This document shows positions 9,476 to 35,970 of a stretch of 64,000 nt of DNA, in pieces. Each line of letters starts with the position of its first letter. The stretch's first letter is position 1. Source of the DNA: Bradyrhizobium sp. AZCC 1610 (GTDB lineage Bacteria; Pseudomonadota; Alphaproteobacteria; Rhizobiales; Xanthobacteraceae); the NCBI RefSeq assembly GCF_036924515.1, contig NZ_JAZHRR010000001.1, forward strand, positions 5,427,001 through 5,491,000, given 5' to 3'. Both the position numbers and the translations under genes were made by a program. Below the pieces are notes generated by a model. That model was given only the letters and a program-made list of their open reading frames with translations, did no database searches and was not told the DNA's origin.

Positions 9476-10726
9476 ATGTTTAAAAGCTGTGCGGGACTGG
9501 TCGCGCTGAGCAGCCTGTTGCTTTCCGGCGCCGCCTTAGCTCAAGAGAAGATCAAGGTCGGCGTCACCGCGACACTCGAAGGCACCTATACGGTGCTCGG
9601 CGAGGACGGAATACGCGGCCATCAAACGGCGATCAATACGCTCGGCAAGAAGATCGGCGACAAGGAACTCGAATTCATCATCGCGTCGACGGATGCCACG
9701 CCCGACTCCGCCATTCGCGCCGTGCGCAAACTGATCGAGCAGGACAAGGTCCAGATCCTGCTCTCGCCGCTGTCCGGCGACGAAGGCATCGCGGTGAAGA
9801 ACTTCGCCAAGACGCGCCCCGAGCTGACCTTCGTCAACGCCGCCTCGGGTGCACAGGAAACCACTTACGTCGACCCGGCGCCGAACTTCTTCCGCTTCAA
9901 TATGGACGGCGCGCAGTGGCAGGTCGGCCTCGGCAAATACGCCTATGAGACCAAGGGATATCGAAAGATCGCAACCGTCGGCGAAGACTATTCATTCATC
10001 TACACGCAGGTGTTCGGGCTCGTGCTCGAATTCTGCGGCGCCGGCGGGCAGGTCACGAACCGGCAATGGGTGCCGCTCGGCACCAAGGACTTTGCTTCCG
10101 TCATTGCCGCGCTGCCCGACGACGTCGACGCGATCTATCTCGGCCTTGGCGGCGCGGACGCCGTCAATTTCCTGAACCAGTACCAGCAGGCCGGCGGCAA
10201 GGCGCATCTGATGGGCGGCTCGATCATGGTCGACCAGACCATCCTCTCCGCCAAGGGCAACGCCAAGAATGCGCTGCTCGGCACCATTGCCGCCAGCGGC
10301 CAGGCCGACACTTGGGAGGATCCAGGCTGGCAGAAGTTCGTGAAGGCCTATCAGGACGCCTTCCCGCCGAACAAGCGGTTCCCGAGCCCGTCGCTGCTCG
10401 CCACCAACTACTACGGCTCGACGATGGCGCTCATCCTCGCGCTGCGTCAGGTCAACGGCGATCTCAGCAACAATCAGGCGAAACTCAAGGAAGCCCTCGC
10501 CAAGATCGAGCTCGACGCGCCCAACGGCAAGATCAAGCTCGACTCCAACCGCCAGGCCATCGGCACCAACTTCGTCACCGAAGTGGTGGATGACGGCAAG
10601 GGCGCCTTGTTCAGCAAGGTCGTGAAGGTCATTCCGAACGTGAACCAGACGCTGGGCTACGACCCGGCGGTATTCTCCAAGATCGGCCTGCCGGGCCGAA
10701 CGGTTCCGGAGTGCAAGAAGTACTGA
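9476..10726 (+). CDS. branched-chain amino acid-type ABC transporter substrate-binding protein
   Basis: The product (416 residues) is a periplasmic binding protein of the LivJ/HAAT type. A signal peptide ends at SGAALAQ (about residue 23) and the mature protein begins EKIKVGVTATLEGTYTVLGED. The type-I fold signatures follow: DATPDSAIRAVRKLIEQDKVQ, LSPLSGDEGIAVKN and FRFNMDGAQWQVGLGKYAY. A strong ribosome site (GGGAGGGG) precedes the ATG. It captures the substrate for the importer encoded just downstream. Liv-like proteins bind amino acids, amides, urea or aromatic acids, so the ligand is open; the neighbouring catabolic genes argue for a carbon compound to be oxidised and hydrolysed. A strong hairpin follows the gene. 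Confidence 0.92.
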   Translation: MFKSCAGLVALSSLLLSGAALAQEKIKVGVTATLEGTYTVLGEDGIRGHQTAINTLGKKIGDKELEFIIASTDATPDSAIRAVRKLIEQDKVQILLSPLSGDEGIAVKNFAKTRPELTFVNAASGAQETTYVDPAPNFFRFNMDGAQWQVGLGKYAYETKGYRKIATVGEDYSFIYTQVFGLVLEFCGAGGQVTNRQWVPLGTKDFASVIAALPDDVDAIYLGLGGADAVNFLNQYQQAGGKAHLMGGSIMVDQTILSAKGNAKNALLGTIAASGQADTWEDPGWQKFVKAYQDAFPPNKRFPSPSLLATNYYGSTMALILALRQVNGDLSNNQAKLKEALAKIELDAPNGKIKLDSNRQAIGTNFVTEVVDDGKGALFSKVVKVIPNVNQTLGYDPAVFSKIGLPGRTVPECKKY

Positions 10727-10744
10727 GTTCTTCGCATTTGCGAA

Positions 10745-10769
10745 CGGGCCCCGGTCATGCCGGGGCCCG
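10745..10769 (+). terminator. strong GC hairpin after the binding-protein gene
   Basis: CGGGCCCCGG (10745-10754) and CCGGGGCCCG (10760-10769) form a perfect 10-bp stem with a 5-base loop, 18 bases after the stop. No T-run follows. It probably acts as a partial terminator or mRNA-stabilising hairpin, letting the binding protein be made in excess over the genes that follow. Confidence 0.6.
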
Positions 10770-10856
10770 GACGGAATGTGATCTTCCCTTGCATTCTCGC
10801 GGCGGATGTTGAACGCTGGTTGAAAAAGACAAGAACATCCCCGCGGGAGGGAAGGC

Positions 10857-11684
10857 ATGAGCAAGGCTCTCGCCGTCTTCCACGGCCGGTTCGGTCGCGC
10901 GACGGTCTATCAGTTGAACCGCCCCTTCAACATGCACGCGCATCGCGAAGGGCATCTGATTTTTCATGTCGGTGGAACGCCAGCCCGCATTGATGTGTGC
11001 GATGAGCGATGGCTTCTCACAGAAGACTCCATTGTTGCCATCAACCCTTGGGAACCACACAATTTTGTTCCGACGGATATGGAGAATGGAGCGATCTTCT
11101 TCGTCCTCTACGTCAACGCCGAATGGTTCGCTCCCGATGCGGCGCGAGCCCACAGCCTGCGGTTCGGCCGCACCTGTTTCAAGCGTACGGTTCCCCTCGA
11201 CAGACATATTCGGCGAACCGCAGCGCTGGTCTGCGGCGCGCCGTCGTTAAGCAGCCTCGATTGCGAACTCAGGCAGCTGATCGACGGTTGCCATGAGGAG
11301 AGCTGGCAGAAGTCCGAGCCGGTGCAGGAGACGCGCACCGCCGCCGCCGTCACCGACTTTCGCGTCCGCAAATCCATCAAGCTGATGTCCGAAAGTCCGG
11401 GCGCCGAGATCGAACTGGATTCGATCGCACGGGAGGCCGGGCTGTCGCGTCCGCACTTCTACCGGCTGTTCCGCACCCAGACCGGCGTCACTCCGAACCT
11501 CTATCTCAATACACTCATCATGGAACAGGCTTTGGACGCGCTCGTCGCGACCGAAGTGCCGATCGCCGATATCGGCTTCGATCTCGGCTTCTCCTCCCAG
11601 AGCGGTTTCACGCGTTTCTTCGCCGCCAATGTCGGGATGGCGCCGACCGAATACCGCCGCGCCGCCAAAGTCTTGCGCCCCTGA
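10857..11684 (+). CDS. AraC family transcriptional regulator
   Basis: The product (275 residues) has an N-terminal cupin-like sensor (HAHREGHLIFHVGGTPARID) and a C-terminal AraC double helix-turn-helix: IELDSIAREAGLSRPHFYRL and VPIADIGFDLGFSSQSGFTR followed by the usual FF..NVGMAPTEYRR. The start is set by GGGAGGGAAGGC just before the ATG. Lying inside the transporter operon, between the binding protein and the permeases, it is the best candidate for the local activator responding to the imported compound. No second regulator occurs in the following 20 kb of same-strand genes. Confidence 0.9.
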   Translation: MSKALAVFHGRFGRATVYQLNRPFNMHAHREGHLIFHVGGTPARIDVCDERWLLTEDSIVAINPWEPHNFVPTDMENGAIFFVLYVNAEWFAPDAARAHSLRFGRTCFKRTVPLDRHIRRTAALVCGAPSLSSLDCELRQLIDGCHEESWQKSEPVQETRTAAAVTDFRVRKSIKLMSESPGAEIELDSIAREAGLSRPHFYRLFRTQTGVTPNLYLNTLIMEQALDALVATEVPIADIGFDLGFSSQSGFTRFFAANVGMAPTEYRRAAKVLRP

Positions 11685-11742
11685 GCGTATCAGGCGCGAA
11701 AAGATACTGACAATCAAGTGCAAGGTCCGCGGCGCCATTAGT

Positions 11743-12825
11743 ATGGCCCGAAAACGCGAGCCGAAACGGCCGCGGCGTCTGGGAGGACGGTATGGCGACG
11801 GCCGGGCTGCTACCGTGACAGGATTCATCGAACGCCATCCGGCATGGGCGCTGATCCTGCTGATCGCGGTCGCGGTGATGCTGTGGCTGATCCTTGCCGT
11901 GTGGCCACCCGGCCTCGAAGAAGCGATCGGCAGGAAGCGGGTCTTTCTCAACGCCGTCTTCAACGGCATCACGCTCGGCAGCCTCTACTTCCTGGTGGCA
12001 AGCGGCTTCACCCTGATTTTCGGCCTGATGCGCAACGTCAATCTGGCACATGGCTCGCTCTATCTGTTCGGCGGCTATATTGGCTACGCCATCAGTACCT
12101 GGACCGGCTCCTGGGTACTCGGCTTCATCATCGCGTTCATCGGCGTGGCGCTGGTCGGCGTCGTCCTGCAAATCGTCGTTTTCCGCCGCATGGAGGGGCA
12201 GGATTTGCGCCAGACCATGGTCACGATCGGGCTCTCGATCGTGTTTGCGGATCTGATGCTGTGGGTATTCGGCGGCGATTTCTATCAGATCCAGACCCCG
12301 AACTGGCTGGTTGGCCCGATCGAATTGCCGCTGGTCACCGCGGTCAGATCGTCGGGCGAGGCGGTCTATCTGCGGTACCCAATGGTGCGGCTCGTGATCT
12401 TCGCAGCCGCGGTCGTGATCGGCATCGCGATGTGGCTGGCGCTCAACCGAACCCGCGTCGGGATGATGGTGCGCGCCGGCGTCGATGACCGCGACATGCT
12501 CGCCGCGACCGGCGTGCCGATCCAGCTCGTCTTCGTCGTCGTGTTCGCGCTCGGCGCAGGCCTTGCCGGCATCGCGGGCGTCGTCGGCGGAACCTTTCAG
12601 TCGATTTCGCCCGGCGAAGATACCCGCTTTCTGCTGGCTTCCCTCGTAGTCGTCATTGTCGGAGGCATGGGATCGATCCCCGGTGCGGCGCTGGGCGCCG
12701 TCATCATCGGCCTCGCCGAGCAGCTTGGCTCCGTCTACATCCCGACCTACGCGATCGTGGTGACCTTCCTCATCATGGTGCTGGTGCTGGCGCTGCGGCC
12801 GCAGGGCCTGTTGGCGAGGCGCTGA
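11743..12825 (+). CDS. branched-chain amino acid-type ABC permease, LivH family
   Basis: This is an inner-membrane permease with about eight hydrophobic helices, including FNGITLGSLYFLVASGFTLIFGLMR and NLAHGSLYLFGGYIGY, the conserved LivH signature, and GIAGVVGGTF.SISPG near the C-terminus. The ATG at 11743 gives a short basic N-terminal tail (ARKREPKRPRR); an in-frame extension to 11629 would overlap the AraC gene and is unlikely. The gene is followed by livM with one base between. It forms half of the membrane channel. Confidence 0.92.
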   Translation: MARKREPKRPRRLGGRYGDGRAATVTGFIERHPAWALILLIAVAVMLWLILAVWPPGLEEAIGRKRVFLNAVFNGITLGSLYFLVASGFTLIFGLMRNVNLAHGSLYLFGGYIGYAISTWTGSWVLGFIIAFIGVALVGVVLQIVVFRRMEGQDLRQTMVTIGLSIVFADLMLWVFGGDFYQIQTPNWLVGPIELPLVTAVRSSGEAVYLRYPMVRLVIFAAAVVIGIAMWLALNRTRVGMMVRAGVDDRDMLAATGVPIQLVFVVVFALGAGLAGIAGVVGGTFQSISPGEDTRFLLASLVVVIVGGMGSIPGAALGAVIIGLAEQLGSVYIPTYAIVVTFLIMVLVLALRPQGLLARR

Positions 12826-12826
12826 C

Positions 12827-13912
12827 ATGTCGTTGGTCCAGAGCGCGCATCAGGAGACCAGTCAGCCGGCAGAAGCGGCGCGCGCGACGTTGCTGGCATG
12901 GCCGGAATTCAACAAGCCCGCTGTCTGGCTGGTGGCGGCGATCCTCTTGGTCATGCCGTTCATCGCCAGCGGTTTCTTCCTGATCGAGATCTTCGCCACA
13001 ACGCTGATCCTCGGAACCATCGCCCTCAGCCTGATGTTCCTGGCGGGCTATGGCGGCATGGTCAGCCTGATGCAGCTCACCATCGCCGGCTTTGCCGCCT
13101 ACATGGTTGCGGTGTTCGGCATGAGCGCCAACACCAATATCAGCCTCGGCTGGCCGTGGTGGCTCGCCACGCCGATGGCGCTGGTGCTCGCGACCATCTT
13201 CGGCACGCTCGGCGGCACACTCGCGGTGCGCACCGAGGGCATCTACACCATCATGATCACGCTCGCGATCGGTGCGGCCTTCTACTATTTCACCAACCAG
13301 AACTGGCCGATCTTCGGCGGCCACACCGGCATCAACACCATCGCCACGCCGAAATTCTGGGGCGTCGACTGGCGCTCCGACGTCCCCTACTATTACGTCA
13401 CGCTGGGCGTCGCAGCGTTTTGCTATTTCGCCGTTCAATATGTCTCGCGCGCGCCGTTCGGCCTCGCGCTGCAGGGCGTGCGTGACAATCCCCGCCGCAT
13501 GGCGGCGCTCGGCTTCAATGTCAACGCGCACCGCGTGGCGGCCTACGCCTTCGCATCCTTTATCGCCGCGCTCGGCGGCGTCCTGCAGGTCTGGAACTAC
13601 CGGCAGATCTCGCCCGGCTCGGTCAGCGTCGGCGCCTGCATCGATATCCTGATTATTGCCGTGGTCGGCGGCATCACCCGCCCCATTGGCCCCTTCATCG
13701 GCGCCTTCATCTTTGTCATCCTGCGCACCTTCGCGCTCGATCTGCTGGTCAAGTTCGGGCTCGACGGCAATCGCTTCCGGTTGCTGATCGGCCTTGGCTT
13801 CCTCGCCATCGTGTTCTGGTCGTCAGATGGCGTGATCGGACTCTGGGAGCGGTGGCGCCGCCGCGCAACCGCTACCGACAAACGCCCGGGCGGAGGTCAC
13901 CGTCATGGATAG
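12827..13912 (+). CDS. branched-chain amino acid-type ABC permease, LivM family
   Basis: The second permease (361 residues) has many hydrophobic helices and the LivM signatures LMFLAGYGGMVSLMQLTIAGFAAYMVA, VRTEGIYTIMITLAIGAAFYY and the cytoplasmic coupling loop ALQGVRDNPRRMAALGFNV. It pairs with the preceding LivH-type protein. It ends inside the first codons of the livG-type gene (13905), so translation is coupled. The C-terminal tail is Arg-rich. Confidence 0.92.
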   Translation: MSLVQSAHQETSQPAEAARATLLAWPEFNKPAVWLVAAILLVMPFIASGFFLIEIFATTLILGTIALSLMFLAGYGGMVSLMQLTIAGFAAYMVAVFGMSANTNISLGWPWWLATPMALVLATIFGTLGGTLAVRTEGIYTIMITLAIGAAFYYFTNQNWPIFGGHTGINTIATPKFWGVDWRSDVPYYYVTLGVAAFCYFAVQYVSRAPFGLALQGVRDNPRRMAALGFNVNAHRVAAYAFASFIAALGGVLQVWNYRQISPGSVSVGACIDILIIAVVGGITRPIGPFIGAFIFVILRTFALDLLVKFGLDGNRFRLLIGLGFLAIVFWSSDGVIGLWERWRRRATATDKRPGGGHRHG

Positions 13913-14687
13913 CGCCGCGCAACGCTTCTCGGCCGTCGGTTCCGGCGCTGCGCTAGAGCTGCGCGGCGTGACCCGGCTGTTCGGCGCGCTCGCGGCGCTG
14001 ACCGACGTCACCATCACGGTTCGCCCGGGAGAACGCCGCGCCGTGCTCGGCTCCAACGGCGCCGGCAAGACCACACTATTCAACTGCGTGACCGGCGACT
14101 TTCCGCCGTCGTCCGGCACCATCCGCTTCTTCGGCGAGGACATCACTCACTTCCCACCCTATGAGCGTATCAGGCGCGGCCTGCGCCGCACCTACCAGAT
14201 ATCAGCGCTGTTTCCCGGCCTCACCGTGAGGGACAACGTCTATCTCGCCTGCCGCGGCGTTTCCCGCGGGCGCTTCTCTCCGCTGCGTCCGGGCGCGAAC
14301 GACGCACTGATGCATGCAGCCGAAGCGCTGATCCAGGCGGTGCATCTGACGCCGGTCAGGGAACAGTTGGTCGCGGAACTTGCGCATGGTCAGCAGCGAC
14401 AGCTCGAGATCGCGCTCGCACTCGCCGGCGCCCCGCGCTTCATCCTGTTCGACGAGCCGGCAGCAGGGCTATCCCCTACCGAGCGGCGCGAACTGGTCGA
14501 AATCCTGACGTCCCTGCCCGCCCATATCGGTTACATCATCATCGAGCACGACATGGATGTCGCGCTGCGCGTCGTCGAAAGTGTCACGATGATGCACAAC
14601 GGCCGTATCTTCAAGGAAGGCCTGCCACACGAGATCGAGGCCGATCCCGAGGTCCAGGAACTGTATCTGGGGGCCGGGCATGAGTGA
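13905..14687 (+). CDS. ABC importer ATPase, LivG family
   Basis: This cytoplasmic ATPase (260 residues) powers the importer. Walker A is [12 protein letters not shown] (about residue 50), the signature segment is [14 protein letters not shown], Walker B is [13 protein letters not shown], and the switch histidine lies in [11 protein letters not shown]. The signature is LAHGQ rather than LSGGQ, as is usual for LivG. The gene overlaps livM upstream and the next gene (14680) downstream by a few bases. Confidence 0.93.
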
Positions 14688-16917
14688 GATCCGCCGTTCC
14701 CCACCTGCCCTCGAAGTCAGGGGCCTCGACGTCTATTACGGTCACTCCCATGCCCTGCAGGGCGTCGATCTGACGCTGGATTCAGGCGTGTTCTCGGTGG
14801 TCGGCCGCAACGGCATGGGCAAAACCACCCTGTGCAAGACCATCATGGGTCTGTTGCGGGCGAGCGGCGGCTCGGTTCGCGTTCGCGGCGAGGATGTCAC
14901 CCGCCTCAGCCCGGCGCGGATCGCGCAGGCAGGTGTCGGCTATGTCCCGCAAGGCAGACGGCTGTGGCGCTCGCTCAGCGTTGCCGAGCATTTGAGCCTC
15001 GCCGCCGGGATGCGCCGCGGCGCCTGGACCATCGATCGCATCTACGAGACATTTCCCCGTCTTGCCGAACGCAAGGACCATGGCGGCGCTCAGCTCTCGG
15101 GCGGCGAGCAGCAGATGCTGGCGATCTCCCGCGCACTTCTCACCAATCCGCATCTGCTCATCATGGACGAGCCGACCGAAGGCCTTGCGCCTGTCATCGT
15201 CGCGCAGGTCGAGGAAATGCTGGTGCGCCTCGGCGAAGACGGTGACATGTCGGTGCTCGTGATCGAGCAGAATATCGGCGTCGCCACCGCGATCTCCAAG
15301 AACGTCGCGATCATGGTCAACGGCCGCATCAATCGCATCATCGACTCCGCGCGCCTCGCGGCGGATCGGGAACTGCAACAGCGTCTGCTCGGTGTTGGAG
15401 TCGTTGGCGTCCATGCCGAGCCGGGAATGGATCTCGAAGCCGCCGATGCGAGCGCAGGCGCCGAGGCGCGTCCCGCGCCGCCACGCGCCCCGAGCACGGC
15501 GCCGATCCGGATCTACATTTCCAACCCCACGCTGCCGACGCGCTGGTCGCAGCCGGCCCCCATTGCGCGCATCGAGGCCGCAGCGCGTACGCTGTCGACG
15601 GGCGTTATGCGGATCGAAGACGCTGCCCGGCAAAAGCGTCAGGCCGGCGCCGTCGTACAAAGCGCGTCCGGACCACCCGTCGTGCTTGTCGCCGGCACGC
15701 TCGATACCAAAGGCGAGGAACTGCGCTTCATTCGCGACGTGATCGCCGGACAGGGCTTGCGGACGCGGCTGGTCGACGTATCAACCAGCGGCAAGCTCTC
15801 CACCTGCGACGTCTCCGCGCAGGAAATCGCGCTGAACCACGGCCGTGGCGGGTCGAGCGTGTTCGGATCCGACCGCGGCGCGTCCGTGACGGCGATGGCG
15901 GACGCCTTCGCCAATTGGCTGCGCCGTCAGGGCAATGTCGCAGGCATCATTTCGGCGGGCGGTTCCGGAGGCGCCTCGCTGGTCGCGCCCGCCATGCGCA
16001 CCCTCCCCGTCGGCGTGCCGAAGCTCATCATCTCCTCCGTCGCGTCGGGAGATGTCGGCCCCTACGTAGGCCCTGCCGATATCACGATGATGTATTCGGT
16101 CACCGACGTGCAGGGCCTCAACTCGATCTCGCGTGCCGTGCTTGCGAACGGCGCCAACGCCATCGCCGGGATGGTGAAGGCGCGTCTGGACCGTCAGGCC
16201 AGGCCCGAACGCAACGCGCCCGCCGAGTTGCCGGCGGTCGGCATCACCATGTTCGGCGTGACGACACCGGCCGTGCAGAAGATCGCGGCCGAGCTGCGCA
16301 ACGATTTCGAGTGTCTCGTCTTCCATGCCACCGGCGTTGGCGGCCGCTCGATGGAAAAGCTGGTCGATTCCGGCATGCTCGCCGCCGTCATTGATCTCAC
16401 GACGACGGAAGTCTGCGATCTGCTGATGGGCGGGGTGTTCCCTGCCACCGACGACCGCTTTGGCGCGATCATCCGCAGCCGCCTGCCCTTCATCGGATCT
16501 GCCGGCGCCCTCGACATGGTCAATTTCGGCGCACCCGACACGATCCCCGAGCGCTATCGCCAGCGCAAGTTCCACGTTCACAATCCGCAGGTGACCTTGA
16601 TGCGCACCACGCCGGAGGAAAACGACCGTATCGGGCGCTGGATCGGCGACAAGCTCAACCGGATGGATGGGCCGGTGCGCTTCTTCCTGCCCGAAGGCGG
16701 CGTCTCCGCGCTCGACGCGCCTGGCCAGCCGTTCTGGGATCCGGAAGCGGATGCGGCGCTGTTTACTGCACTGGAGCGCAGCGTGCGCCAGACCAGCAAT
16801 CGCCAGCTTGTCCGCGTCAAGCGCCACATCAACGAACCCGAATTTGCATCCGCCATCGTCAACGCGCTCCGTCCTCTGGTCGGACGCCCGGGGACCCGTC
16901 GGAAAGTCGCGAGGTGA
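14680..16917 (+). CDS. fusion of LivF-type ABC ATPase with a Tm-1-like (UPF0261) ATP-binding domain
   Basis: The first about 240 of 745 residues are a complete LivF ATPase: Walker [10 protein letters not shown] at 42-50, signature LSGGEQQML, Walker [14 protein letters not shown] and switch segment [10 protein letters not shown] Pro/Ala-rich linker (about 241-330) leads to a full Tm-1-like domain (about 331-740) starting [20 protein letters not shown], with [32 protein letters not shown] and [17 protein letters not shown]. LivF alone is about 235 residues, so this is a true fusion in one uninterrupted frame. The next gene encodes the TIM-barrel family found joined to this domain in plant Tm-1. 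A role in sensing or chemically trapping the imported substrate is inference. Confidence 0.93.
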
Positions 16918-16919
16918 CC

Positions 16920-17753: not shown

Positions 17754-17778
17754 ACGCCGAGACCAAAGGGAGGAAGAG

Positions 17779-20679: not shown

Positions 20680-20688
20680 GAGCACACC

Positions 20689-21126: not shown

Positions 21127-21127
21127 C

Positions 21128-21571: not shown

Positions 21572-21587
21572 ACGCGGAGGCAAAGCC

Positions 21588-22406: not shown

Positions 22407-22411
22407 GCATC

Positions 22412-22891: not shown

Positions 22892-22902
22892 AGGGAACGA
22901 CC

Positions 22903-24489
22903 ATGCTGGAATTGCGCAAGGACATCTTCGCCGACGAGCGCGACGACAATCTGAAGGAGATCGGAAAGGGCACGCAGCGCCAGGACATGCTCGGCCATGT
23001 CACGGGCACCTCGACCTATTTCGACGACCACAAGCTGCAGGGCATGCTCCATCTTAAAGTACTACGCAGCCCGCACGCCCATGCTCGCCTGCGCCGCATC
23101 GACACGATGGAAGCGGAACGTTCGCCCGGCGTGCGCCGCATCATTCGCGGGGCCGACGTTCCAATCAATCTCAACACGCTCCTCAGCCTGATCAATTTCG
23201 GCAAGGACGACGAGCCGTCGCTCGCCGTCGACAAGGTGCGCTACAAGGGCGAGCCGATCGTGGCTATCGTCGCCGACAGTCCGCGGGAGGCGTATGAGGC
23301 GCTCGCCAAAGTGCGGGTCGATTACGAGCCGCTGCCCGCGGTGTTCGACGTCGAGGAAGCGCTAAAGCCGGGCGCGCCCGTCGTCAACGAGGTCTATCCC
23401 AAGAACACCTTCATCTATCACGATATCTACGATCATCAGAAGCTGCGGTTCGGCGACGTCGAGCGCGGCCTCGCCGAGGCCGATCATGTGCTCGAACAGG
23501 GTTACCAGATGTCGCCGATCGAGCATGCGCCGACCGAGACCAATGGCTCGATTGCGGCGCCCGATACCAACGGTCGCTACGTCGTCTACACCTCGACGCA
23601 GGCTTTGTTCTTCTCGCTCGATACCTGCGCAAAAATCCTCGACGTACCCTCCAACACCTTCCACTTCATTGGCGGAACCGTAGGCGGCGGTTTCGGCGGC
23701 AAGGTGGACACGCTCACCGAACCGCTCGCCATTCTCGGCGCGATGCTGACCGGGCGTCCGGTGCGCTATCAGCTCGGCCGCGAGGAGGAGATGCAGTTCG
23801 GCTCGCCGCGCGGCGCCGAACGCATCTACATCAAGGACGGCGTGATGCGCGACGGACGCATCGTCGCGCGCAAGATTCGCGCCTATTTCGACAGCGGCGC
23901 CTATACCCGGCTCTCAAGCTACGCCGTGGTCAAATGCGCGGCGCACCTGCCCGGGCCCTATACGATCCCCAACGTCCATGGCGATATCTACTGCGTGTTC
24001 ACCAACCGGACGCCCGCGACCGCCATGCGCGGCTTCGGCGTCACGGCGATGGACTTTGCGCTCGAATGCCAGATGGACAAGCTCGCCCATCTCGTCGGCA
24101 TCGACCCGATGGAGTTTCGGATTCTCAACGCCTATCGCGACGGCGACATGAAGGCGCACCGGCGCGAGGCGAAGAACACCGCGCTGATCGAATGCGTCCA
24201 GGTCGCCGCGGAAAAGGCCAAGTGGCCGCTTCGCGAAGAGGTCAAGCGCATGTCCTCGCGCAAGGACGGCGGCGGCAGCCGGGCGACGATATCGCCGACG
24301 CCGCTCGAACCTGTCCCCCAACGCGCTGCGGCTGTGCAGCAGCGAACCACTTACGATCGCGCGCCCGCTGCAACGACCCAGCAACCGCCGCCCGCGCCGA
24401 CACCGCCCCCTCCCCCGCGACCGCAGGCTCCATCGCCCTCGCATGGCGCCACCCGCTTCTCTTCCGTCTTCGGCACCAGGAGACGCTGA
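22903..24489 (+). CDS. molybdenum hydroxylase large subunit, N-terminal part (separate gene)
   Basis: This 528-residue protein covers the first half of a CoxL/XdhB-type large subunit: the hammerhead domain (GTSTYFDDHKLQGMLHLKVLRSPHAHARL) and first molybdopterin-binding domain (FIGGTVGGGFGGKVDTLTEP and TPATAMRGFGVTAMDFALECQMD). It then stops where other large subunits continue; residues about 440-528 are a Ser/Pro-rich tail with a run of prolines. The rest is encoded by the next gene. The CO dehydrogenase loop AYRCSFR is absent, with TAMRGFG in its place, so CO is not the substrate. The ATG at 22903 follows AAGGGAACGACC; an in-frame opening back to 22147 only overlaps coxM and coxS. Confidence 0.9.
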   Translation: MLELRKDIFADERDDNLKEIGKGTQRQDMLGHVTGTSTYFDDHKLQGMLHLKVLRSPHAHARLRRIDTMEAERSPGVRRIIRGADVPINLNTLLSLINFGKDDEPSLAVDKVRYKGEPIVAIVADSPREAYEALAKVRVDYEPLPAVFDVEEALKPGAPVVNEVYPKNTFIYHDIYDHQKLRFGDVERGLAEADHVLEQGYQMSPIEHAPTETNGSIAAPDTNGRYVVYTSTQALFFSLDTCAKILDVPSNTFHFIGGTVGGGFGGKVDTLTEPLAILGAMLTGRPVRYQLGREEEMQFGSPRGAERIYIKDGVMRDGRIVARKIRAYFDSGAYTRLSSYAVVKCAAHLPGPYTIPNVHGDIYCVFTNRTPATAMRGFGVTAMDFALECQMDKLAHLVGIDPMEFRILNAYRDGDMKAHRREAKNTALIECVQVAAEKAKWPLREEVKRMSSRKDGGGSRATISPTPLEPVPQRAAAVQQRTTYDRAPAATTQQPPPAPTPPPPPRPQAPSPSHGATRFSSVFGTRRR

Positions 24490-24491
24490 CC

Positions 24492-25514
24492 ATGGCAAAG
24501 CATCGTGGACGCGGCATCGCCTCGATCAACTATCCCATCGGCATGAATCTCGGCGGCGACCCCAGCCAGGCGCTGGTTCATTCCAACCCCAGCGGCAAGT
24601 TCACGGTATCGTTGTCGTCGATCGATCTCGGCCAGGGCATGAAATCGGTGACGCGGCAGATCTGTGCGGAGACGCTAGGCGTGCCGGTCGAAGACGTCTA
24701 TGTCGATACTGCGGATTCCGACACCGGGCCGCACTGCATGGGCTCGTTCGCGTCGCGCGGCACGCATCGCGTCGGCAATGCTGTCATGGCGGCGGCCAAA
24801 GAGGCGCGCGGTGTGATGATGGAAGCGGCCGCCGAGGAGCTGGAGGTCAACGCCGCCGATCTCGATACCGACGGGCGCGGCAACATCCACGTCAAGGGCG
24901 CGCCGCACCGCTCGATCTCCACCAAGGACGTCGCGATCGCCGCGCAATTCAAGCAAGGCAAGACGATATCGGGACGCGGCATCTTTCTGGTGCCGCTTTC
25001 CGAGGTCAATCCCGAAACCGGCGAGATGTCACCCGCCACCTGCTACGCGCATGCATGCCTGGTCGCCGAGGTCGAGGTGGACGATGAGACCGGTGAAGTC
25101 GCGATGGTGCGCATGGACAGTGCGTATGAACTCGGCCGCGCGCTCAATCCGCGGTTGGTGGAGCAGCAACTCGTCGGCGGCGCGTGGATGGGGATCAGCC
25201 ACGCGCTGTTTGAAACGCCCGAGCCTTATTATCCCGACCCCGCTCACGGCCCGCGCGACTTCGTCGAATATCTGATGCCCGGCCCCGGCGACGTCTGCCC
25301 GCACGATATCGCGGTGCTGGAACGCCCCGCCGCCGACGGGCCGTTCGGAGCCAAAGGACCCGGGGAGATGTGCGCAAATCCGGTGCTGCCCGCGGTCGCC
25401 AATGCCATCTTCAATGCCGTCGGCGTACGGATGGATGAACTGCCGATCACGCCGGAAAAAGTCTTGCGGGCGATCAAGGCGCAGGGCGGCGCGCGGCCGC
25501 AGGCGAAGCGCTGA
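24492..25514 (+). CDS. molybdenum hydroxylase large subunit, C-terminal part (separate gene)
   Basis: The 340-residue product supplies the second molybdopterin-binding domain missing from the preceding gene. It starts MAKHRGRGIASINYPIGMNLGGDPSQ, carries SSIDLGQGMKSVTRQICAETLGV, and ends with the active-site segment GPFGAKGPGEMCANPVLPAVANAI, where the conserved Glu is the usual catalytic base. Only two bases separate it from the first half and it is in another frame. Because both halves keep their motifs and this one has its own start, a natural two-chain subunit is more likely than a recent frameshift. Confidence 0.88.
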   Translation: MAKHRGRGIASINYPIGMNLGGDPSQALVHSNPSGKFTVSLSSIDLGQGMKSVTRQICAETLGVPVEDVYVDTADSDTGPHCMGSFASRGTHRVGNAVMAAAKEARGVMMEAAAEELEVNAADLDTDGRGNIHVKGAPHRSISTKDVAIAAQFKQGKTISGRGIFLVPLSEVNPETGEMSPATCYAHACLVAEVEVDDETGEVAMVRMDSAYELGRALNPRLVEQQLVGGAWMGISHALFETPEPYYPDPAHGPRDFVEYLMPGPGDVCPHDIAVLERPAADGPFGAKGPGEMCANPVLPAVANAIFNAVGVRMDELPITPEKVLRAIKAQGGARPQAKR

Positions 25515-25523
25515 GGTCTTTCC

Positions 25524-26405
25524 ATGGTGGTACGCGGCAACATCGTCGGCATCGACAGCCCGGAGGCGCTCGAACGGGCGTTGCGGACGGCATATTATTT
25601 GGCAGACGAAGGCCTCGCGACGGCTGCGTATCTCGGGCTTGCGCTCGGCAAGCCACTGCTGCTGGAAGGCGCGCCGGGCGTCGGCAAGACCGAAGCCGCA
25701 AAAGCCATCGCCGCCGTGCTCGGCCGCCGCCTGATCCGCCTGCAATGCTATGAGGGCATCGACGCATCAGCCGCGCTCTACGAGTGGAACTATCCGCGCC
25801 AGATGCTCGCGATTCGCCAGGCCGGCGAGGAAACGATCGACATCTATGGCGAGACTTTTCTGATCGAGCGGCCGATGCTTGCTTCCTTGCGCGCGCCTGA
25901 TTCCACCGTCCTGCTGATCGATGAAATCGACCGTGCCGACCAGGAGTTCGAGGCGTTCCTGCTCGAATTCCTCTCCGACTTCCAGATCTCCATTCCTGAG
26001 CGCGGCACGGTCCGCGCCACCGAGCGCCCCGTCGTCGTGCTGACCTCGAACCGCACCCGCGACCTGCACGAAGCGCTGCGCCGCCGCTGCGTCTATCATT
26101 GGATCGAATACCCCACCGCCGAGCGCGAGGCGCGCATCGTGATGATGCGGGCATCGAGCGTCGCCGAAGCAACCGCACGCGCCGTCGTCGCCGCTGTCGG
26201 GCGGCTGCGGCGCGAGCCGCTGAGCAAGGCGCCGGGCATTGCGGAAGCCGTGGACTGGGCCGAAGCGGCCACGCTGCTGCACGAGCGCGGCGCGCGTTGG
26301 CCCGACGCGTTCAAGCGCTCGATCGGCGTTGCGCTGAAGGATGAGGAGGACCTCACCTTCATCTCCGGCCGGCTCGACGCCCTCATTGCGGAGGCTGCCG
26401 CGTGA
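25524..26405 (+). CDS. MoxR family AAA ATPase (CoxD-like)
   Basis: The product (293 residues) is a MoxR/CoxD-type AAA+ ATPase: Walker A EGAPGVGKTEAAKAIA near residue 52, Walker B VLLIDEIDRADQEFEAFLLE near 130, sensor 1 VVLTSNRTRDLHEALRRRC. CoxD-type ATPases act with a VWA partner to mature the metal centre of molybdenum hydroxylases. Here the stop overlaps the GTG start of the VWA gene, so they are coupled. The coxL-D-E order is kept. Confidence 0.92.
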   Translation: MVVRGNIVGIDSPEALERALRTAYYLADEGLATAAYLGLALGKPLLLEGAPGVGKTEAAKAIAAVLGRRLIRLQCYEGIDASAALYEWNYPRQMLAIRQAGEETIDIYGETFLIERPMLASLRAPDSTVLLIDEIDRADQEFEAFLLEFLSDFQISIPERGTVRATERPVVVLTSNRTRDLHEALRRRCVYHWIEYPTAEREARIVMMRASSVAEATARAVVAAVGRLRREPLSKAPGIAEAVDWAEAATLLHERGARWPDAFKRSIGVALKDEEDLTFISGRLDALIAEAAA

Positions 26406-27520
26406 GCGATGAACTTCAGCTACCGCGCGCTATCCGCGTGTTCGTGTCCTTTGTTGCGCTGCTGCGCGCCAACGGCTTTGCCGTGGCGCCGGAACAAACG
26501 ACGGCGTATCTCGCCGCCATCGAGCTACTGGGGCCGCGCAGCATGGAGGCCATCCGCCTCGCGGGATTGGCGACGCTCGCCCCGCCGCCCGAGCGGCGCG
26601 CCACCTACGACCGGCTGTTCGACATCCATTTCCTCGGCAGCGAAGCGGTGGATCGCGCGGGCGCGGAAGATGAGGAAGTGGTTCGCCTGCAGGAGGAAGG
26701 TCGCGGGGAAGACGAAACGCTGCTGGCGGATGAGGCCAACGAATCAGGACTTGCCGCGGCCCGCGCCGAGGCACTGGTCGAGCGCCGCTTCGCGGCAAGC
26801 GCGACTGGCGATGCGTTGCGAAAGCTTTCGCGCGAGGCACCCGCGCGCCTGCCACGGCGACGAGGCCACCGGCGCATGCGCGCCCGCCGTGGGCCGTGGG
26901 CGGATCTTCGCCGTACCTTGCGCGAGAGCGTGCGCAACGACGGCGAGGTGCTGCGGCTCGGACGGCTGAGACGGCGCACCCGCCCGCGTAAGGTTTTGTT
27001 GCTGATCGACGTCTCCGGTTCGATGAAGGGCCGCACCGACGACAATATGAAGCTGGCGCATGCGCTGTCGCACGCAGCTCCCAATGTCGAGGTGTTCACC
27101 TTCGGCACCCGTCTCACCCGCGTCACTCGCGCGCTCCGTCTCAAGCGCCGCGAGCAGGCGCTGTCTGCCGCCGCCCATCTGGTCAGCGATTGGGACGGCG
27201 GCACCCGGATCGGCGATGCGTTGCAGGCCTTCCTGGCGGTGCCCCGGTTCGGCAGCTATGCGCGAGGCGCCGCGGTCGTCATCGTCTCCGACGGACTGGA
27301 ACGCGGCGATCCCTCTGCCTTGCGTGATGCCGTTGCAAAATTATCTCGACGCGCCTGGCGCCTGAGCTGGCTGACGCCGCTCGCCGCCGGTCCCAGCTTT
27401 CAGCCGCAGACCGAAGCGCTGATCGCGATCCGCCGCTTCGTGGATGATCTGGTCGACGGCGGATCCACCGCCGCGATCGTTTCGCATGTGCTCTCGCTCG
27501 GACAAAGGAAGGCCGCGTGA
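26402..27520 (+). CDS. VWA domain protein (CoxE-like)
   Basis: This 372-residue protein is the partner of the MoxR ATPase. The MIDAS metal site is intact: LLIDVSGSMKGRTDD near residue 200, with TFGTRLTRVTRAL and the later DWDGGTRIGDALQAFL and VVIVSDGLERGDP. The N-terminal half is helical and highly charged. CoxE-type proteins recruit the ATPase to the immature hydroxylase. Both ends overlap neighbouring genes by four bases (GTGA), placing the amidohydrolase in the same transcript. Confidence 0.92.
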   Translation: MSDELQLPRAIRVFVSFVALLRANGFAVAPEQTTAYLAAIELLGPRSMEAIRLAGLATLAPPPERRATYDRLFDIHFLGSEAVDRAGAEDEEVVRLQEEGRGEDETLLADEANESGLAAARAEALVERRFAASATGDALRKLSREAPARLPRRRGHRRMRARRGPWADLRRTLRESVRNDGEVLRLGRLRRRTRPRKVLLLIDVSGSMKGRTDDNMKLAHALSHAAPNVEVFTFGTRLTRVTRALRLKRREQALSAAAHLVSDWDGGTRIGDALQAFLAVPRFGSYARGAAVVIVSDGLERGDPSALRDAVAKLSRRAWRLSWLTPLAAGPSFQPQTEALIAIRRFVDDLVDGGSTAAIVSHVLSLGQRKAA

Positions 27521-28407
27521 CCGAAATCGTCGATGCCCATCATCATATCTGGCGTCAGGCCGACCTGCCCTGGTTGAGCGGCCCGATGCAGCCGCGGATC
27601 TTTGGCCCCTACGAGCCGATCCGGCGCGACTATCCGATCCAGGAATATCTCGATGATCTCGCAGGCTCCGACGTAGCGCGCTCGGTCTATGTGCAGACCA
27701 ACTGGACCAATGACCGCTTCGAGGACGAGACCGCCTGGGTGCAGGAAACCGCTGATAACCACGGCTGGCCGCACGCCATCGTCTCCTATGCCGACTTCAA
27801 CGTCGATGACGTTCGCCCGCAACTGGATCGTCTCGCGCGCTATCCGCTGGTGCGCGGCGTGCGCATGCAACTGCACTGGCACGAAAACCCGCTCTATCGC
27901 TTTGCGGCGCAGCCTGACCTCTGCGCCGATCCAACTATCCGCCGCAACGTCGCCCGGCTCGCCGAGTATGACTTCAGCTTCGACCTCCAGGTGTTCGCGC
28001 CGCAGATGGTCGACGCCGCAGGCCTCGCCGAAGCCTGCCCCGATGTGACCTTCATCCTGCAGCACGCCGGCATGCTGGAAGACCTTTCGCCGCAGGGCCG
28101 AGCCGCCTGGCGCGCCGGCATGAGCCGGCTTGCGGCCTGCCCGAATGTCGTTTCAAAACTTTCCGGCCTCGGCACCTTCATTCACCGCAACGACCCCGCG
28201 CATGTAGCCGGTGTTCTCACCGACACGGTCGCGATCTTCGGCGCCGAGCGCTGCCTGTTCGGCTCGAACTTCCCGATCGAAAAGCTTTGGACGACCTATC
28301 GCGAACTGGTCGATGCCTATCTCGCCGCGACTACCTCGCTTCGAGCGGACCAACGCGATGCCGTTCTGCGAACGACAGCCTCGCGCGTCTACCGGCTTGA
28401 CCGATGA
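27517..28407 (+). CDS. amidohydrolase-2 family hydrolase (COG3618 lactonase type)
   Basis: The product (296 residues) is a TIM-barrel metal hydrolase of the amidohydrolase-2 superfamily related to fuconolactonase and 2-pyrone-4,6-dicarboxylate lactonase. The metal motif DAHHHIW is at residues 6-12; LVRGVRMQLHW, FILQHAGM and LFGSNFPIEKLW supply the other conserved strands and the final Asp/Asn region. Family members open lactones or cleave amide rings. The GTG start overlaps the VWA gene, so it belongs to the molybdenum hydroxylase operon and most likely acts on the hydroxylated product. The substrate is unknown. Confidence 0.87.
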   Translation: MTEIVDAHHHIWRQADLPWLSGPMQPRIFGPYEPIRRDYPIQEYLDDLAGSDVARSVYVQTNWTNDRFEDETAWVQETADNHGWPHAIVSYADFNVDDVRPQLDRLARYPLVRGVRMQLHWHENPLYRFAAQPDLCADPTIRRNVARLAEYDFSFDLQVFAPQMVDAAGLAEACPDVTFILQHAGMLEDLSPQGRAAWRAGMSRLAACPNVVSKLSGLGTFIHRNDPAHVAGVLTDTVAIFGAERCLFGSNFPIEKLWTTYRELVDAYLAATTSLRADQRDAVLRTTASRVYRLDR

Positions 28408-28452
28408 CGGCGCACGCGGATCCGCCGATGAAAAGAATGTGGGAGGGAGCAT

Positions 28453-29301
28453 ATGCCGCTTGAAATCAAGATCCTGGACTATGGGGATATCGAACTGGAA
28501 TCGAGCTTTCTGGTGCTCGGCCGCGATTGCGGCCGGACCCGCCGTGTCCTGACGCTGGGTTTTCTGATCGTCGGCGGTCCCTATCCTGTCGTGGTCGATA
28601 CCGGCTATCGCTCCAACCAGATCATGGAAACGCTGGGCATGCGCGGGCTTCAATTCCACGAGAACATGATCGAGAACCAGCTCGCGCGCCACGGCGTGCG
28701 CATGGGCGACGTCCGCTACGTCTGCCACACCCACCTGCATATCGACCACGCCGGCAAGGACGACCTGTTTCCCATGAACACCACGGTCGTGCTCAACCGC
28801 AAGGAACTGGAATATTCCGTCTCCGGCCTGATGCATCCGCAATATCCGGCGCCCGACATCAAGCACCTGATCGACCGCCTGCACACCAAGAGCGCGCTGC
28901 GCTTCCTCGATCTCGAGCTCACCGGCCCTGTCGAATTGATGCCGGGCGTCTATTGCGACGCCGCCAACGCCCATACCGAAGGCTCGATGAACATCCACGT
29001 TCATACCGCCGACGGCATCGCCACCATCTGCGGCGACGTGATCTACGACATCAACGACCAGATCGTCACGCCCTTCAACGAGATCCACGACGCCGAACCG
29101 CGCACGACGGGCAATCACGGCACCAGCAAGCGGGCGGAGAAGGCCGCGATCAAAAAACTCCTGAGCAATTCGCGCTATTTGCTCCCGGTCCACGACCGGC
29201 CGGCCAAGGTCGAAGGCGGCATGGTGGTCGGCCGGCTGCACGATCAGGTACCCGGCCCTGTGGTTCAGAGCCTGCCGCAGCGCAACTGGTTCCCGGCCTG
29301 A
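28453..29301 (+). CDS. MBL-fold hydrolase, AHL-lactonase-like family
   Basis: The 282-residue product is a metallo-beta-lactamase-fold enzyme with the zinc motif His94-x-His96-x-Asp98-His99 (THLHIDHAG), a later metal histidine in ANAHTEGSMNI, and the aspartate in GDVIYD. The closest family is the N-acyl homoserine lactonase/AttM group, which opens lactone rings. A GGGAGGGAG ribosome site precedes the ATG. In this operon a second ring-opening or thioester hydrolysis step is more plausible than quorum quenching, since no LuxI/LuxR genes are near, but that is inference. Confidence 0.87.
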   Translation: MPLEIKILDYGDIELESSFLVLGRDCGRTRRVLTLGFLIVGGPYPVVVDTGYRSNQIMETLGMRGLQFHENMIENQLARHGVRMGDVRYVCHTHLHIDHAGKDDLFPMNTTVVLNRKELEYSVSGLMHPQYPAPDIKHLIDRLHTKSALRFLDLELTGPVELMPGVYCDAANAHTEGSMNIHVHTADGIATICGDVIYDINDQIVTPFNEIHDAEPRTTGNHGTSKRAEKAAIKKLLSNSRYLLPVHDRPAKVEGGMVVGRLHDQVPGPVVQSLPQRNWFPA

Positions 29302-29320
29302 GCGCTGAAAGGACGGACCG

Positions 29321-30898
29321 ATGACGCACGTCACGCTGCGCCCGGAATTCGAAACCCTGATCGACCCCTACGCACCGGTCGGCCAGGTAGGTACGGGTTT
29401 TGATTTCACGGAGGGGCCGATCTGGCATCCGGTCCATCACTATCTGCTGTTTTCGGATATGCCCGCCGACGTGCGCCGGCGATGGGATGCCAAGCGCGGC
29501 GTCGTCGAGGTCAAGCGCCCTTCGAACAAATGCAACGGCATGACCTATGACGCAGAGCTCAACCTGATCGTCTGCGAGCATGCCACCTCGTCGTTGATCC
29601 GCGAACGCCCCGACGGAAGGCGCGAGGTGATTGCCTCGCATTTCGAGAATCAGGAGCTCAACAGCCCGAACGATGTCTGTGTGCATTCCAGCGGCGCGAT
29701 CTACTTCAGCGACCCCTGGTACGGCCGCATGCCGGTCTACGGCGTCGAGCGGCCACGTCAGCTCGGCTTCCAGGGCGTTTACCGCGTCCCGCCGGGCGGC
29801 CGTCCGCCGAAACTCGTGGTCGACCGCCATCTCTTCGACCAGCCCAACGGCCTCTGCTTCTCGCCCGATGAACGTCTGCTCTACGTCAACGATACCACGC
29901 AGGCGCTGATCCGCGCCTTCGACGTCGAGGCCGATGGTTCGCTTTCCAATGCGCGAATCTTCGCCAGCGGCATCCGCTCCGAGCTCGAGCCCGGCCTGCC
30001 CGACGGCATGAAGTGCGACCAGCGCGGCAATATCTGGGTCACCGCGCCCGGCGGCGTCTGGGTCTATTCCCCCGCCGGCGAATTGCTCGGCAAGGTGCGC
30101 GTTCCCGAGCTCGTCGCCAATCTCACCTGGGGCAGCGCTGATTTCCGCACGCTCTATCTGACCGCCACCCACTCGGTCTATGCGATCCCGGTCAAAGCCG
30201 GGCCGCACCACGAACCCTATATGAGCGGCCGCGCTTCGACCGGCCCCGATACCTCATCCGCGCAGCCCGCCTCGCCTCAACTTACCGGCGGCGACATGCA
30301 GCTTGATCCGCGGCGCTGCGCGATGATCATTCAGGATCTGCAGAACGATGTGATCATGGAGGGCGGCGCGTTCGCCGATTCCGGCTCGCCCGGCCATGCA
30401 CGCCAGCAGCGGGTGGTCGACAACGTCCGCCGCCTCTCAGAAGCCGCGCGGGCGCGCGGCGTCGTCATCATCCATGTCTGGTTCATCGTCGAACCCGGCG
30501 CGCCCGGCGTCACGCTCAACGCACCGTTGTTCGAAGGCCTGGTCGACAGCGGCGCAATGGTGCGCGGAAGTTGGGGTGCGGCGCCGGTCTCGGGACTGGA
30601 GCCCCGCGCCGGCGACTTCATCGTCGAGAAGATGCGCATGAGCGCCTGGGAAGGCACAAGGCTGGAGACCATCCTGAAGGCGACCGGCCGCGACATGATC
30701 ATCAATACCGGCGCCTGGACCAACATGTCGATCGAGCACACCGCCCGCACCGGTGCCGACAAGGGCTACTTCATGATCGTCCCTGAAGACTGTTGCTCGA
30801 CGATGAACGCGGACTGGCACAACGCCTCCATCAACTTTGCGATGCAGAACGTCGCCGTCGTCACCAACGCCGATGCGGTCATCAGGGGATTGGGATGA
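29321..30898 (+). CDS. fusion of SMP-30/gluconolactonase domain and isochorismatase-like domain
   Basis: Residues 1-300 form a six-bladed SMP-30/gluconolactonase propeller (FDFTEGPIWHP, NSPNDVCVHSSGAIYFSDP, PNGLCFSPDERLLYVND, GLPDGMKCDQRGNIWVTAPGG). A short Ser/Pro linker (about 300-325) leads to an isochorismatase-like domain (about 326-525) with the usual Asp in MIIQDLQNDV and Lys in IVEKMRMSAW. The position of the nucleophilic Cys holds Ser470 (TNMSIEHTAR). The domain is therefore unlikely to be a standard cysteine amidohydrolase; it may be non-hydrolytic or use another mechanism. The gene lies in the same operon as two other lactonase-type enzymes. Confidence 0.9.
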   Translation: MTHVTLRPEFETLIDPYAPVGQVGTGFDFTEGPIWHPVHHYLLFSDMPADVRRRWDAKRGVVEVKRPSNKCNGMTYDAELNLIVCEHATSSLIRERPDGRREVIASHFENQELNSPNDVCVHSSGAIYFSDPWYGRMPVYGVERPRQLGFQGVYRVPPGGRPPKLVVDRHLFDQPNGLCFSPDERLLYVNDTTQALIRAFDVEADGSLSNARIFASGIRSELEPGLPDGMKCDQRGNIWVTAPGGVWVYSPAGELLGKVRVPELVANLTWGSADFRTLYLTATHSVYAIPVKAGPHHEPYMSGRASTGPDTSSAQPASPQLTGGDMQLDPRRCAMIIQDLQNDVIMEGGAFADSGSPGHARQQRVVDNVRRLSEAARARGVVIIHVWFIVEPGAPGVTLNAPLFEGLVDSGAMVRGSWGAAPVSGLEPRAGDFIVEKMRMSAWEGTRLETILKATGRDMIINTGAWTNMSIEHTARTGADKGYFMIVPEDCCSTMNADWHNASINFAMQNVAVVTNADAVIRGLG

Positions 30899-30911
30899 AC
30901 AGAGTGCGGCC

Positions 30912-31538
30912 ATGCCAAAACTCTTTCACCTGAGCTGCTCGCCGCGGGCGGACTCGGAATCCTCCGCCGGGGCGCGGGCCTTTGTCGACCGCTTCCGAGA
31001 AGCGCGGCCGGACTGGGACATCGACGTGATGAACCTGTGGCGGGATCACCTGCCGGAATTCGAGGGTTATGTACTGGAGGCCAAATACGCCCGCATCAAT
31101 GGACGGGCCTTCACCGATTCACAGCGCGATGCCTTTGCGGTCACCGAGCGCATCGCGCTCCGGTTCGCGCTCGCCGACCGCGTGTTGATTTCGACGCCGA
31201 TGTGGAATTTCGGTATTCCCTACAAGCTGAAGCAATGGATCGACGTCATCACGCAGCCCGGGCTGGCGTTTCGCTACGATCCGGCGCAAGGCTATCTGCC
31301 GCTGTTCAAGGACCGGCCGACAATCGTGATCCTGGCGAGCGGCAGCGATTTCATCACCGGCATGAATCGCGGCCGCATCGACATGGCGACACCCTATCTG
31401 CGCGAGGCGCTGCGCTTCATCGGCGTCAGCGACGTGCGTTTCGTGCCGATCGGACCAACCACCGGGCCGCTCGAACCGATCCACACCGCACGCGAAGGCG
31501 CGCATCGGCGGCTGGCCGAGATGGCCGCGCGATTCTGA
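30912..31538 (+). CDS. FMN-dependent NADH:quinone oxidoreductase / azoreductase (AzoR family)
   Basis: The product (208 residues) has the flavodoxin-like fold of AzoR: LFHLSCSPRADSESSAGARAF at the N-terminus, LISTPMWNFGIPYKLKQWIDVITQPGLAFRY near 95, and ILASGSDF near 140. AzoR enzymes reduce quinones and azo dyes with NAD(P)H in the cytoplasm. The ATG at 30912 lies 13 bases after the previous stop. At the end of the hydroxylase operon it may re-reduce a quinone intermediate or quench oxidative by-products, which is inference. Confidence 0.88.
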   Translation: MPKLFHLSCSPRADSESSAGARAFVDRFREARPDWDIDVMNLWRDHLPEFEGYVLEAKYARINGRAFTDSQRDAFAVTERIALRFALADRVLISTPMWNFGIPYKLKQWIDVITQPGLAFRYDPAQGYLPLFKDRPTIVILASGSDFITGMNRGRIDMATPYLREALRFIGVSDVRFVPIGPTTGPLEPIHTAREGAHRRLAEMAARF

Positions 31539-35937: not shown

Positions 35938-35970
35938 CCTCCAGCCGGATTCCTTGAGAAGGAGACAAGT

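Follow-up and report, generated by a model that had tools for sequence, protein, structure and literature searches.

Proteins of the UPF0261 family and their TIM-barrel partners are known from plants, in the form of the tomato virus-resistance protein Tm-1, and from fungi, archaea and bacteria, and an interaction between the two proteins has been inferred from their co-occurrence and co-evolution, according to an excerpt of PMC5028733. The structure of one UPF0261 domain protein, Saro_1862 of Novosphingobium aromaticivorans, carries a title that places acetovanillone in it (PDB 9MPY), and acetovanillone breakdown in N. aromaticivorans begins with MarK, termed a single-component kinase in the excerpt consulted (PMC13101465). 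Phosphorylation is likewise the first aromatic catabolic step for the hydroxyphenylethanone kinases HpeHI and AcvAB (excerpts of PMC12167813 and PMC9618137). Here we describe a locus in which a UPF0261 domain is fused to the ATPase of an importer. It lies in a 64,000-nucleotide stretch (the window) from Bradyrhizobium sp. AZCC 1610, whose 7.75-Mb genome is a single contig, and belongs to a block of 20 closely packed genes, all on the plus strand, at positions 9476-31538.

The sixth gene of the block encodes a LivF-type ATP-binding cassette (ABC) ATPase followed by a UPF0261 domain, matched over its full length (PF06792, 203.5 bits, and PF23189, 306.3 bits, against a cut-off of 27). The UPF0261 part aligns with Tm-1 over residues 2-399 (329.6 bits) and with 9MPY over residues 2-403 (E 1.1e-58, 202.8 bits), and the motifs common to it and its relatives are legible in the Tm-1/9MPY alignment. 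In the ATPase part we read GRNGMGKTT, which we take to be the Walker A motif, and LSGGEQQ. The arrangement differs from that of the closest relatives: plants fuse UPF0261 to the TIM-barrel protein, whereas here UPF0261 is fused to LivF and the TIM-barrel protein is a separate adjacent gene; and in contrast to Saro_1862, or to the single-component MarK, the domain is joined to an ABC ATPase and stands beside a TIM partner, a flotillin and a molybdenum (Mo) hydroxylase. The homology lead is strong, and the UPF0261 domain of the fusion is probably a small-molecule kinase. Because its solved relative points to such a kinase, phosphorylation on import is likely to be the defining chemistry of the block, and the gene fusion itself suggests that kinase and import are coupled. 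The importer and the genes that accompany it are as follows.

9476..10726, plus strand, periplasmic binding protein (PBP) of a Liv/Urt-type importer (PF13458, Peripla_BP_6, 167 bits; UrtA similarity far below the cut-off)
10857..11684, plus strand, AraC-type regulator (PF12833, PF02311)
11815..12828, plus strand, LivH-type permease (open reading frame from 11629, GTG 11815 preferred; PF02653 match beginning at residue 110 of the long form)
12827..13912, plus strand, LivM-type permease (PF02653)
13905..14687, plus strand, LivG-type ATPase (PF00005; nearest NCBIfam UrtD, below cut-off)
14680..16917, plus strand, LivF-type ATPase (PF00005, 96.7 bits) fused to full-length UPF0261 (Tm-1/Saro_1862 family), probable kinase
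16914..17753, plus strand, PF09370 TIM-barrel partner (434.9 bits; 2p10, E 4.5e-118)
17779..20679, plus strand, flotillin-like protein of 966 aa with an N-terminal hydrophobic stretch
20689..21126, plus strand, SRPBCC protein 1 (PF10604)
21128..21571, plus strand, SRPBCC protein 2, GTG start preferred (PF10604)

With a binding protein (PF13458), two permeases (PF02653 twice) and two ATPases (PF00005 twice), the importer is a complete ABC system of the Liv/HAAT type. A urea transporter UrtABCDE was considered and rejected, as UrtA, UrtB, UrtC and UrtD scored 65.9, 176.1, 91.6 and 201 bits against NCBIfam cut-offs of 492.75, 250.3, 296.2 and 304.1. The flotillin assignment rests on a Band_7/SPFH domain (PF01145, 63.3 bits) together with a Flot domain (PF15975, 130.6 bits).

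To define which genes accompany UPF0261, 43 loci were compared, namely the best 35 of 63 match rows other than the window's own and 8 from 38 further rows; both samples lean to strong matches, and the 27 weaker match rows left out hold no fusion-size frame. UPF0261 was fused to LivF in 19 loci and unfused in 24. The fusion loci carried flotillin in 18 cases, SRPBCC genes in 18 and the TIM partner in 17 (a count that misses L113, where it lies further away, and L127, which is cut short). Six of the fusion loci have the split Mo hydroxylase and 11 an alternative tail; the two that show no tail lie on short contigs. The unfused loci carried TIM in 21 cases, SRPBCC in 9 and flotillin in none, which gives flotillin a defined genetic partner, since in these 43 loci it was found near UPF0261 only with the fusion (18/19 versus 0/24). 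The alternative tail comprises an SRPBCC-zinc alcohol dehydrogenase fusion, an amidohydrolase and an alpha/beta hydrolase whose nearest family, below cut-off, is 3-oxoadipate enol-lactonase; 8 of the 11 loci have an FAA hydrolase as well. The unit is composite: a core found across Alphaproteobacteria, made of the Liv importer, LivF-UPF0261, the TIM-barrel protein, the giant flotillin and the SRPBCC proteins, is followed either by the Mo hydroxylase with its hydrolases or by the SRPBCC-dehydrogenase fusion with other hydrolases. As the core occurs with two alternative tails, flotillin and SRPBCC are core members and do not belong to the hydroxylase as CoxG.

A preliminary description of this stretch had taken the SRPBCC proteins for CoxG-type partners of the hydroxylase, an identity that we rejected: PF10604 was the sole Pfam match of both at E 0.001, and SRPBCC genes are tied to the core, standing near UPF0261 in all 11 fusion loci with the alternative tail. 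It had also made hydroxylation the central step and given the UPF0261 domain no function; the first of these views gives way to a constant part without the hydroxylase, which is one of two tails, and the second to the kinase lead from the solved relative. A tree built from 44 UPF0261 domains placed the loci with the hydroxylase in one clade (100/97) and grouped the fusions at 99/97; L127 is shown there as unfused and counts as fused in the locus comparison (814-aa frame on a 3.4-kb contig).

Some loci depart from these arrangements. Two alternative-tail clusters begin with a gene other than AraC, L112 with a divergent GntR/FCD gene and L116 with one for a 376-aa protein that has a sub-cut-off PF09370 match. 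In L111, also with the alternative tail, distant Mo hydroxylase genes lie on the opposite strand (about 32% identity in the Mo halves). LivF and UPF0261 are adjacent separate genes, with TIM and SRPBCC, in L131 and L138. At a 35% identity cut-off LivH stood near UPF0261 in 2 of the 24 unfused loci, and four more (L130, L136, L143, L144) have Liv genes at 26-43% beside TIM, SRPBCC and UPF0261. In L155 an unfused UPF0261-TIM pair adjoins an AMP-binding enzyme and a GRDB-like protein.

In the window, the tail consists of the following genes, of which the third ends in a distinctive peptide.

21588..22406, plus strand, flavin adenine dinucleotide (FAD) subunit of the Mo hydroxylase, single Cys (PF00941, PF03450)
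22412..22891, plus strand, 2Fe-2S subunit with 8 Cys, recognised from its sequence (TIGR03193 169.3 bits, below cut-off)
22903..24489, plus strand, N-terminal half of the Mo subunit (MoN), with a 98-residue proline-rich tail (PF01315, PF02738; best solved relative 3hrd_A)
24193-24486, plus strand, proline-rich MoN tail
24454..24486, plus strand, C-terminal peptide RFSSVFGTRRR of this tail
24492..25514, plus strand, C-terminal half of the Mo subunit (MoC), GPGE motif (PF20256; best solved relative 3hrd_B)
25524..26405, plus strand, CoxD-like AAA maturation ATPase (PF00004, PF07728)
26402..27520, plus strand, CoxE-like VWA maturation protein (PF05762, 163.7 bits)
27517..28407, plus strand, Amidohydro_2, fuconolactonase-like hydrolase (PF04909; NF052480 104.7 bits, below its cut-off of 400; 4dlf)
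28453..29301, plus strand, metallo-beta-lactamase-fold hydrolase, lactonase-like (PF00753; weak similarity to N-acyl-homoserine lactone (AHL) lactonase and pyridoxolactonase)
29321..30898, plus strand, SMP-30/gluconolactonase (SGL) domain fused to an isochorismatase-type hydrolase (PF08450, PF00857)
30912..31538, plus strand, flavodoxin-fold (Flavodoxin_2) NAD(P)H oxidoreductase, azoreductase-like (AzoR), ATG 30912 preferred (PF02525)

Within Bradyrhizobium, core and hydroxylase tail are kept together. Of 117 sampled genomes, 96 carry a UPF0261 C-domain and 93 have the match in a frame of fusion size (738-782 aa; in G859 the frame has 275 aa), one match per genome being taken by frame size, with smaller matches left out and LivF content judged by size alone. 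The SGL-isochorismatase gene (E 1e-150 or better) was found in exactly the same 93 genomes and in no others; the two genes share a contig in 80 of the 93, 12,247-14,500 bp apart, and lie on different contigs in 13. In a set of 80 named loci (78 titled Bradyrhizobium, with L048 recorded as Frankia sp. RB7 and L052 as Alphaproteobacteria bacterium), the order PBP, AraC, LivH, LivM, LivG, LivF-UPF0261, TIM, flotillin, SRPBCC1, SRPBCC2, FAD, 2Fe-2S, MoN, MoC, CoxD was kept in 74, and the remaining 6 are truncated where their contigs end; these loci were picked by LivF-UPF0261 similarity and are therefore not an unbiased sample. A search of 21 genomes to which named loci belong recovered the SGL-isochorismatase gene in every one, about 2.3-2.7 kb past the fetched stretch. 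Four further families share this hydroxylase variant (L118, L124, L125, L126, L150), and the five downstream stretches from outside Bradyrhizobium hold Amidohydro_2 in 5/5, SGL and isochorismatase in 4/5 and a metallo-beta-lactamase-fold gene in 3/5, the fifth stretch (L157) stopping at a contig end. The 20-gene block is thus a real unit, beyond chance. On these points the preliminary description was borne out: it had claimed about 20 tightly packed plus-strand genes forming one coherent uptake, oxidation and hydrolysis unit that closes at 31538, every part that it had named was found by domain scans, and homologous blocks are not always apart, either in the genus or in the four further families.

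The hydroxylase is a complete member of the xanthine oxidase family, with PF00941, PF03450, PF01315, PF02738 and PF20256 all matched and an 8-Cys 2Fe-2S subunit. Its Mo subunit is split at the same border as in nicotinate dehydrogenase NdhFSLM, the large and medium Mo subunits of that enzyme (3HRD, presumably from Eubacterium barkeri) being the best solved relatives, one chain for each half. The core-linked relatives that were read likewise encode MoN and MoC in separate frames, so that the split is not a frameshift peculiar to one genome. The block shares with the cox clusters of aerobic CO dehydrogenase the placing of CoxD- and CoxE-like maturation genes after the structural ones, but the SRPBCC proteins of the block match PF10604 and not CoxG, and its Mo subunit lacks AYRCSFR, the active-site motif of the form I CO dehydrogenase large subunit. 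CO dehydrogenase (form I) was rejected on this ground, TPATAMRGFG standing in place of that motif; MoN scored 164.1 bits with TIGR02416, whose whole-subunit cut-off of 991.15 a half subunit could not reach. The 4-hydroxybenzoyl-CoA reductases have an extra 4Fe-4S insert in the FAD subunit; with one Cys in that subunit here and 72.6 bits against 404.55 for TIGR03195, this candidate was rejected as well.

Compared with nicotinate dehydrogenase, MoN has a long proline-rich tail ending in RFSSVFGTRRR. The tail is 94-138 residues long and usually proline-rich (fraction 0.11-0.22) in the 19 core-linked sequences examined; in three unlinked split relatives the corresponding tail has only 28 residues, and the RFSSVFGTRRR-type end was missing from these three. 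The pattern RF[ST][ST][VI]FG was found in 74 of the 80 named loci, the remaining 6 ending before its position, and RFS[ST][VIL][FS]G.RRR fits 6/6 further core-linked loci. As a DNA pattern the motif gave one match in the whole genome and its reversed control gave none. RFSSVFGTRRR is perhaps a docking peptide. We scanned 385 genomes of the class for MoC relatives, scoring at most 5 candidates per genome. Among the matches listed, at least 6 genomes, counting that of the window, have a relative at 73% identity or above, in every case at the fusion cluster; a further three relatives (56-58%, two genomes) stand on stretches of 4.6-19 kb that lack core genes. L146, L147 and L148 encode split Mo hydroxylases (56-58% identity) together with FAD and 2Fe-2S subunits, and no importer, UPF0261 or flotillin was found on the fetched stretches.

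Gene content and order, their conservation, the division into core and tails and the fold families are established by the comparisons above. On balance, we slightly prefer to read the block as an operon under regulation that serves uptake and catabolism, with an importer-kinase core as its foundation. The pathway that we infer, from the phosphorylation and its link with import to the nature of each substrate and the sequence of reactions, would run as follows. The periplasmic binding protein would capture a solute and LivHMGF import it; UPF0261, C-terminal on LivF, would be an ATP-dependent kinase that traps the incoming compound at the importer's inner face by phosphorylating one of its hydroxyls, probably a phenolic or enolic one, and so keeps it from leaking out; and the TIM-barrel partner would then act on the phosphorylated compound. 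The title of its relative 2P10, putative phosphonopyruvate hydrolase, is in keeping with such a role and does not amount to proof. The membrane-anchored flotillin would scaffold the site and the SRPBCC proteins bind a poorly soluble substrate or product. The split hydroxylase, matured by the CoxD/CoxE-like proteins and perhaps docked through its C-terminal peptide, would add a hydroxyl or oxidise an aldehyde, after which the lactonase- and amidase-type hydrolases would open its product. A ring compound is a plausible substrate. A bolder version, which we regard as possible but doubtful, is a group-translocating ABC importer in a flotillin-organised site, with a docked Mo hydroxylase receiving the product via RFSSVFGTRRR: since importer ATPase and substrate kinase are one polypeptide, ATP would power both uptake and phosphorylation at one and the same opening. 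Coupling of the two, if real, would amount to a strategy like that of the phosphotransferase system (PTS), set on an ABC importer. An operon with UPF0261 on a transporter ATPase, constant partners and a changing catabolic tail makes the native role of UPF0261 and TIM testable.

Several observations weigh against a kinase-centred operon. The argument for kinase activity of the LivF-UPF0261 protein is one of homology; it passes through the identity of Saro_1862 with MarK, which we infer as probable, and 9MPY (202.8 bits) is more distant from the UPF0261 part than plant Tm-1 (329.6 bits), whose native function is given as unknown in the excerpt of PMC5028733. HpeHI was rejected as a UPF0261 relative, since it is related to rifampin phosphotransferase (PMC12167813, in the part consulted). 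Pfam scans of the unit proteins matched no carboxylase, CoA ligase or ring-cleaving dioxygenase, so that the substrate is probably not acetovanillone itself; the known acetovanillone route employs a carboxylase (excerpt of PMC9618137), and the lack of a carboxylase match also sets the block apart from the HpeHI and AcvAB systems. AlphaFold models were weak, with mean predicted local distance difference test (pLDDT) values of 59.1 and 53.1. The unfused L155 sits within the fusion clade, and 17 of the 24 unfused loci gave no LivH or LivM match on the fetched stretch. Finally, L142 and L145 are UPF0261-TIM loci amid sugar-type genes, and substrates of the family therefore need not be aromatic. 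These two loci are a second, sugar-type setting of the family: the distant UPF0261-TIM pair shares an operon with class II aldolases, an FGGY sugar kinase, a HAD hydrolase and an alpha/beta hydrolase (in L145 as judged by gene clusters).

Other explanations were weighed on the same evidence. UPF0261 on LivF could be a ligand-sensing regulatory domain that gates the importer and performs no chemistry, comparable to the regulatory C-termini known from some ABC ATPases. Its fusion to an ATPase with GRNGMGKTT and LSGGEQQ, the small aromatic in the title of 9MPY and the Liv importer genes beside UPF0261 in 6 of the 24 unfused loci would all suit a sensor, but no part of the domain is missing and its conservation is strong (95% or above in 91 columns, over 41 of 44 aligned rows), and a regulator serving only a transporter would not need the TIM pairing seen in 21 of 24 unfused loci, 17 of the 24 having no LivH/LivM match; we consider this explanation unlikely. 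We give similarly little credence to the scheme of the preliminary description, in which a ring compound is imported, hydroxylated at the membrane by the Mo enzyme, assisted by CoxG-like proteins, and opened, UPF0261 and TIM being accessory. In its favour, the importer has a complete hydroxylase and three lactonase/amidase-type hydrolases closely linked to it, and the split Mo subunits are closest to nicotinate dehydrogenase; however, among the 17 fusion loci with a visible tail, 11 carry the alternative one and lack this hydroxylase (L111 having the distant one only), and the SRPBCC proteins, not CoxG by Pfam, travel with the core. It appears very improbable that independent operons have simply accumulated side by side to form the block: core and tail do separate between families, and the PBP gene is followed by a 130-bp gap with a hairpin, the AraC gene perhaps by a second gap of 130 bp, but gene order is identical in 74 of the 80 named loci, with the rest cut by contig ends, and the genes at its start and end have an identical presence set across the 117 genomes.

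Junctions within the block are short overlaps and gaps of up to 45 bp, bar one or two exceptions, as computed with the long LivH reading frame and a placeholder AzoR start. The PBP-AraC junction of 130 bp is the first exception, and the AraC-LivH junction would also measure 130 bp provided LivH starts at GTG 11815, a start that we favour because the longest frame, opening at 11629, would overlap AraC by 56 bp; in locus L119, LivH similarity starts about 155 bp past AraC. In 11782-11818 a GGAGG precedes a short frame (ATG...TGA, 8 codons) which extends over the likely LivH GTG start and may encode a leader peptide. The first junction holds one further feature.

10740..10775 (approximate limits), plus strand, strong RNA hairpin between the PBP and AraC genes (z -6.35 for 10727-10856)

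None of 200 shuffles was equally stable, and the hairpin is absent from the terminator-like sites of the terminator scan; it is possibly a processing or attenuation site that raises the yield of the PBP. Promoter and terminator scans returned sites no more numerous than in shuffled sequence.

The right edge of the unit at 31538 is good, because AzoR was present in 7/7 Bradyrhizobium-like downstream stretches (L162-L168, of which L167 is recorded as Frankia sp. RB7) and the next gene, the alcohol dehydrogenase gene ADH (31576), in 1/7. AzoR was found in 0/5 downstream stretches from other families, L157 among them ending before the AzoR position. Upstream of the block, 6034-9188 encodes two proteins with SIS domains and, on the minus strand, a DUF2066 protein, outside the conserved unit. 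At 34882-39019, HlyD, an ABC ATPase and two MacB/FtsX permeases form an efflux-type system that adjoins the unit; close homologues of all four genes stand beside the unit only in L163, that is in 1/7 Bradyrhizobium-like stretches.

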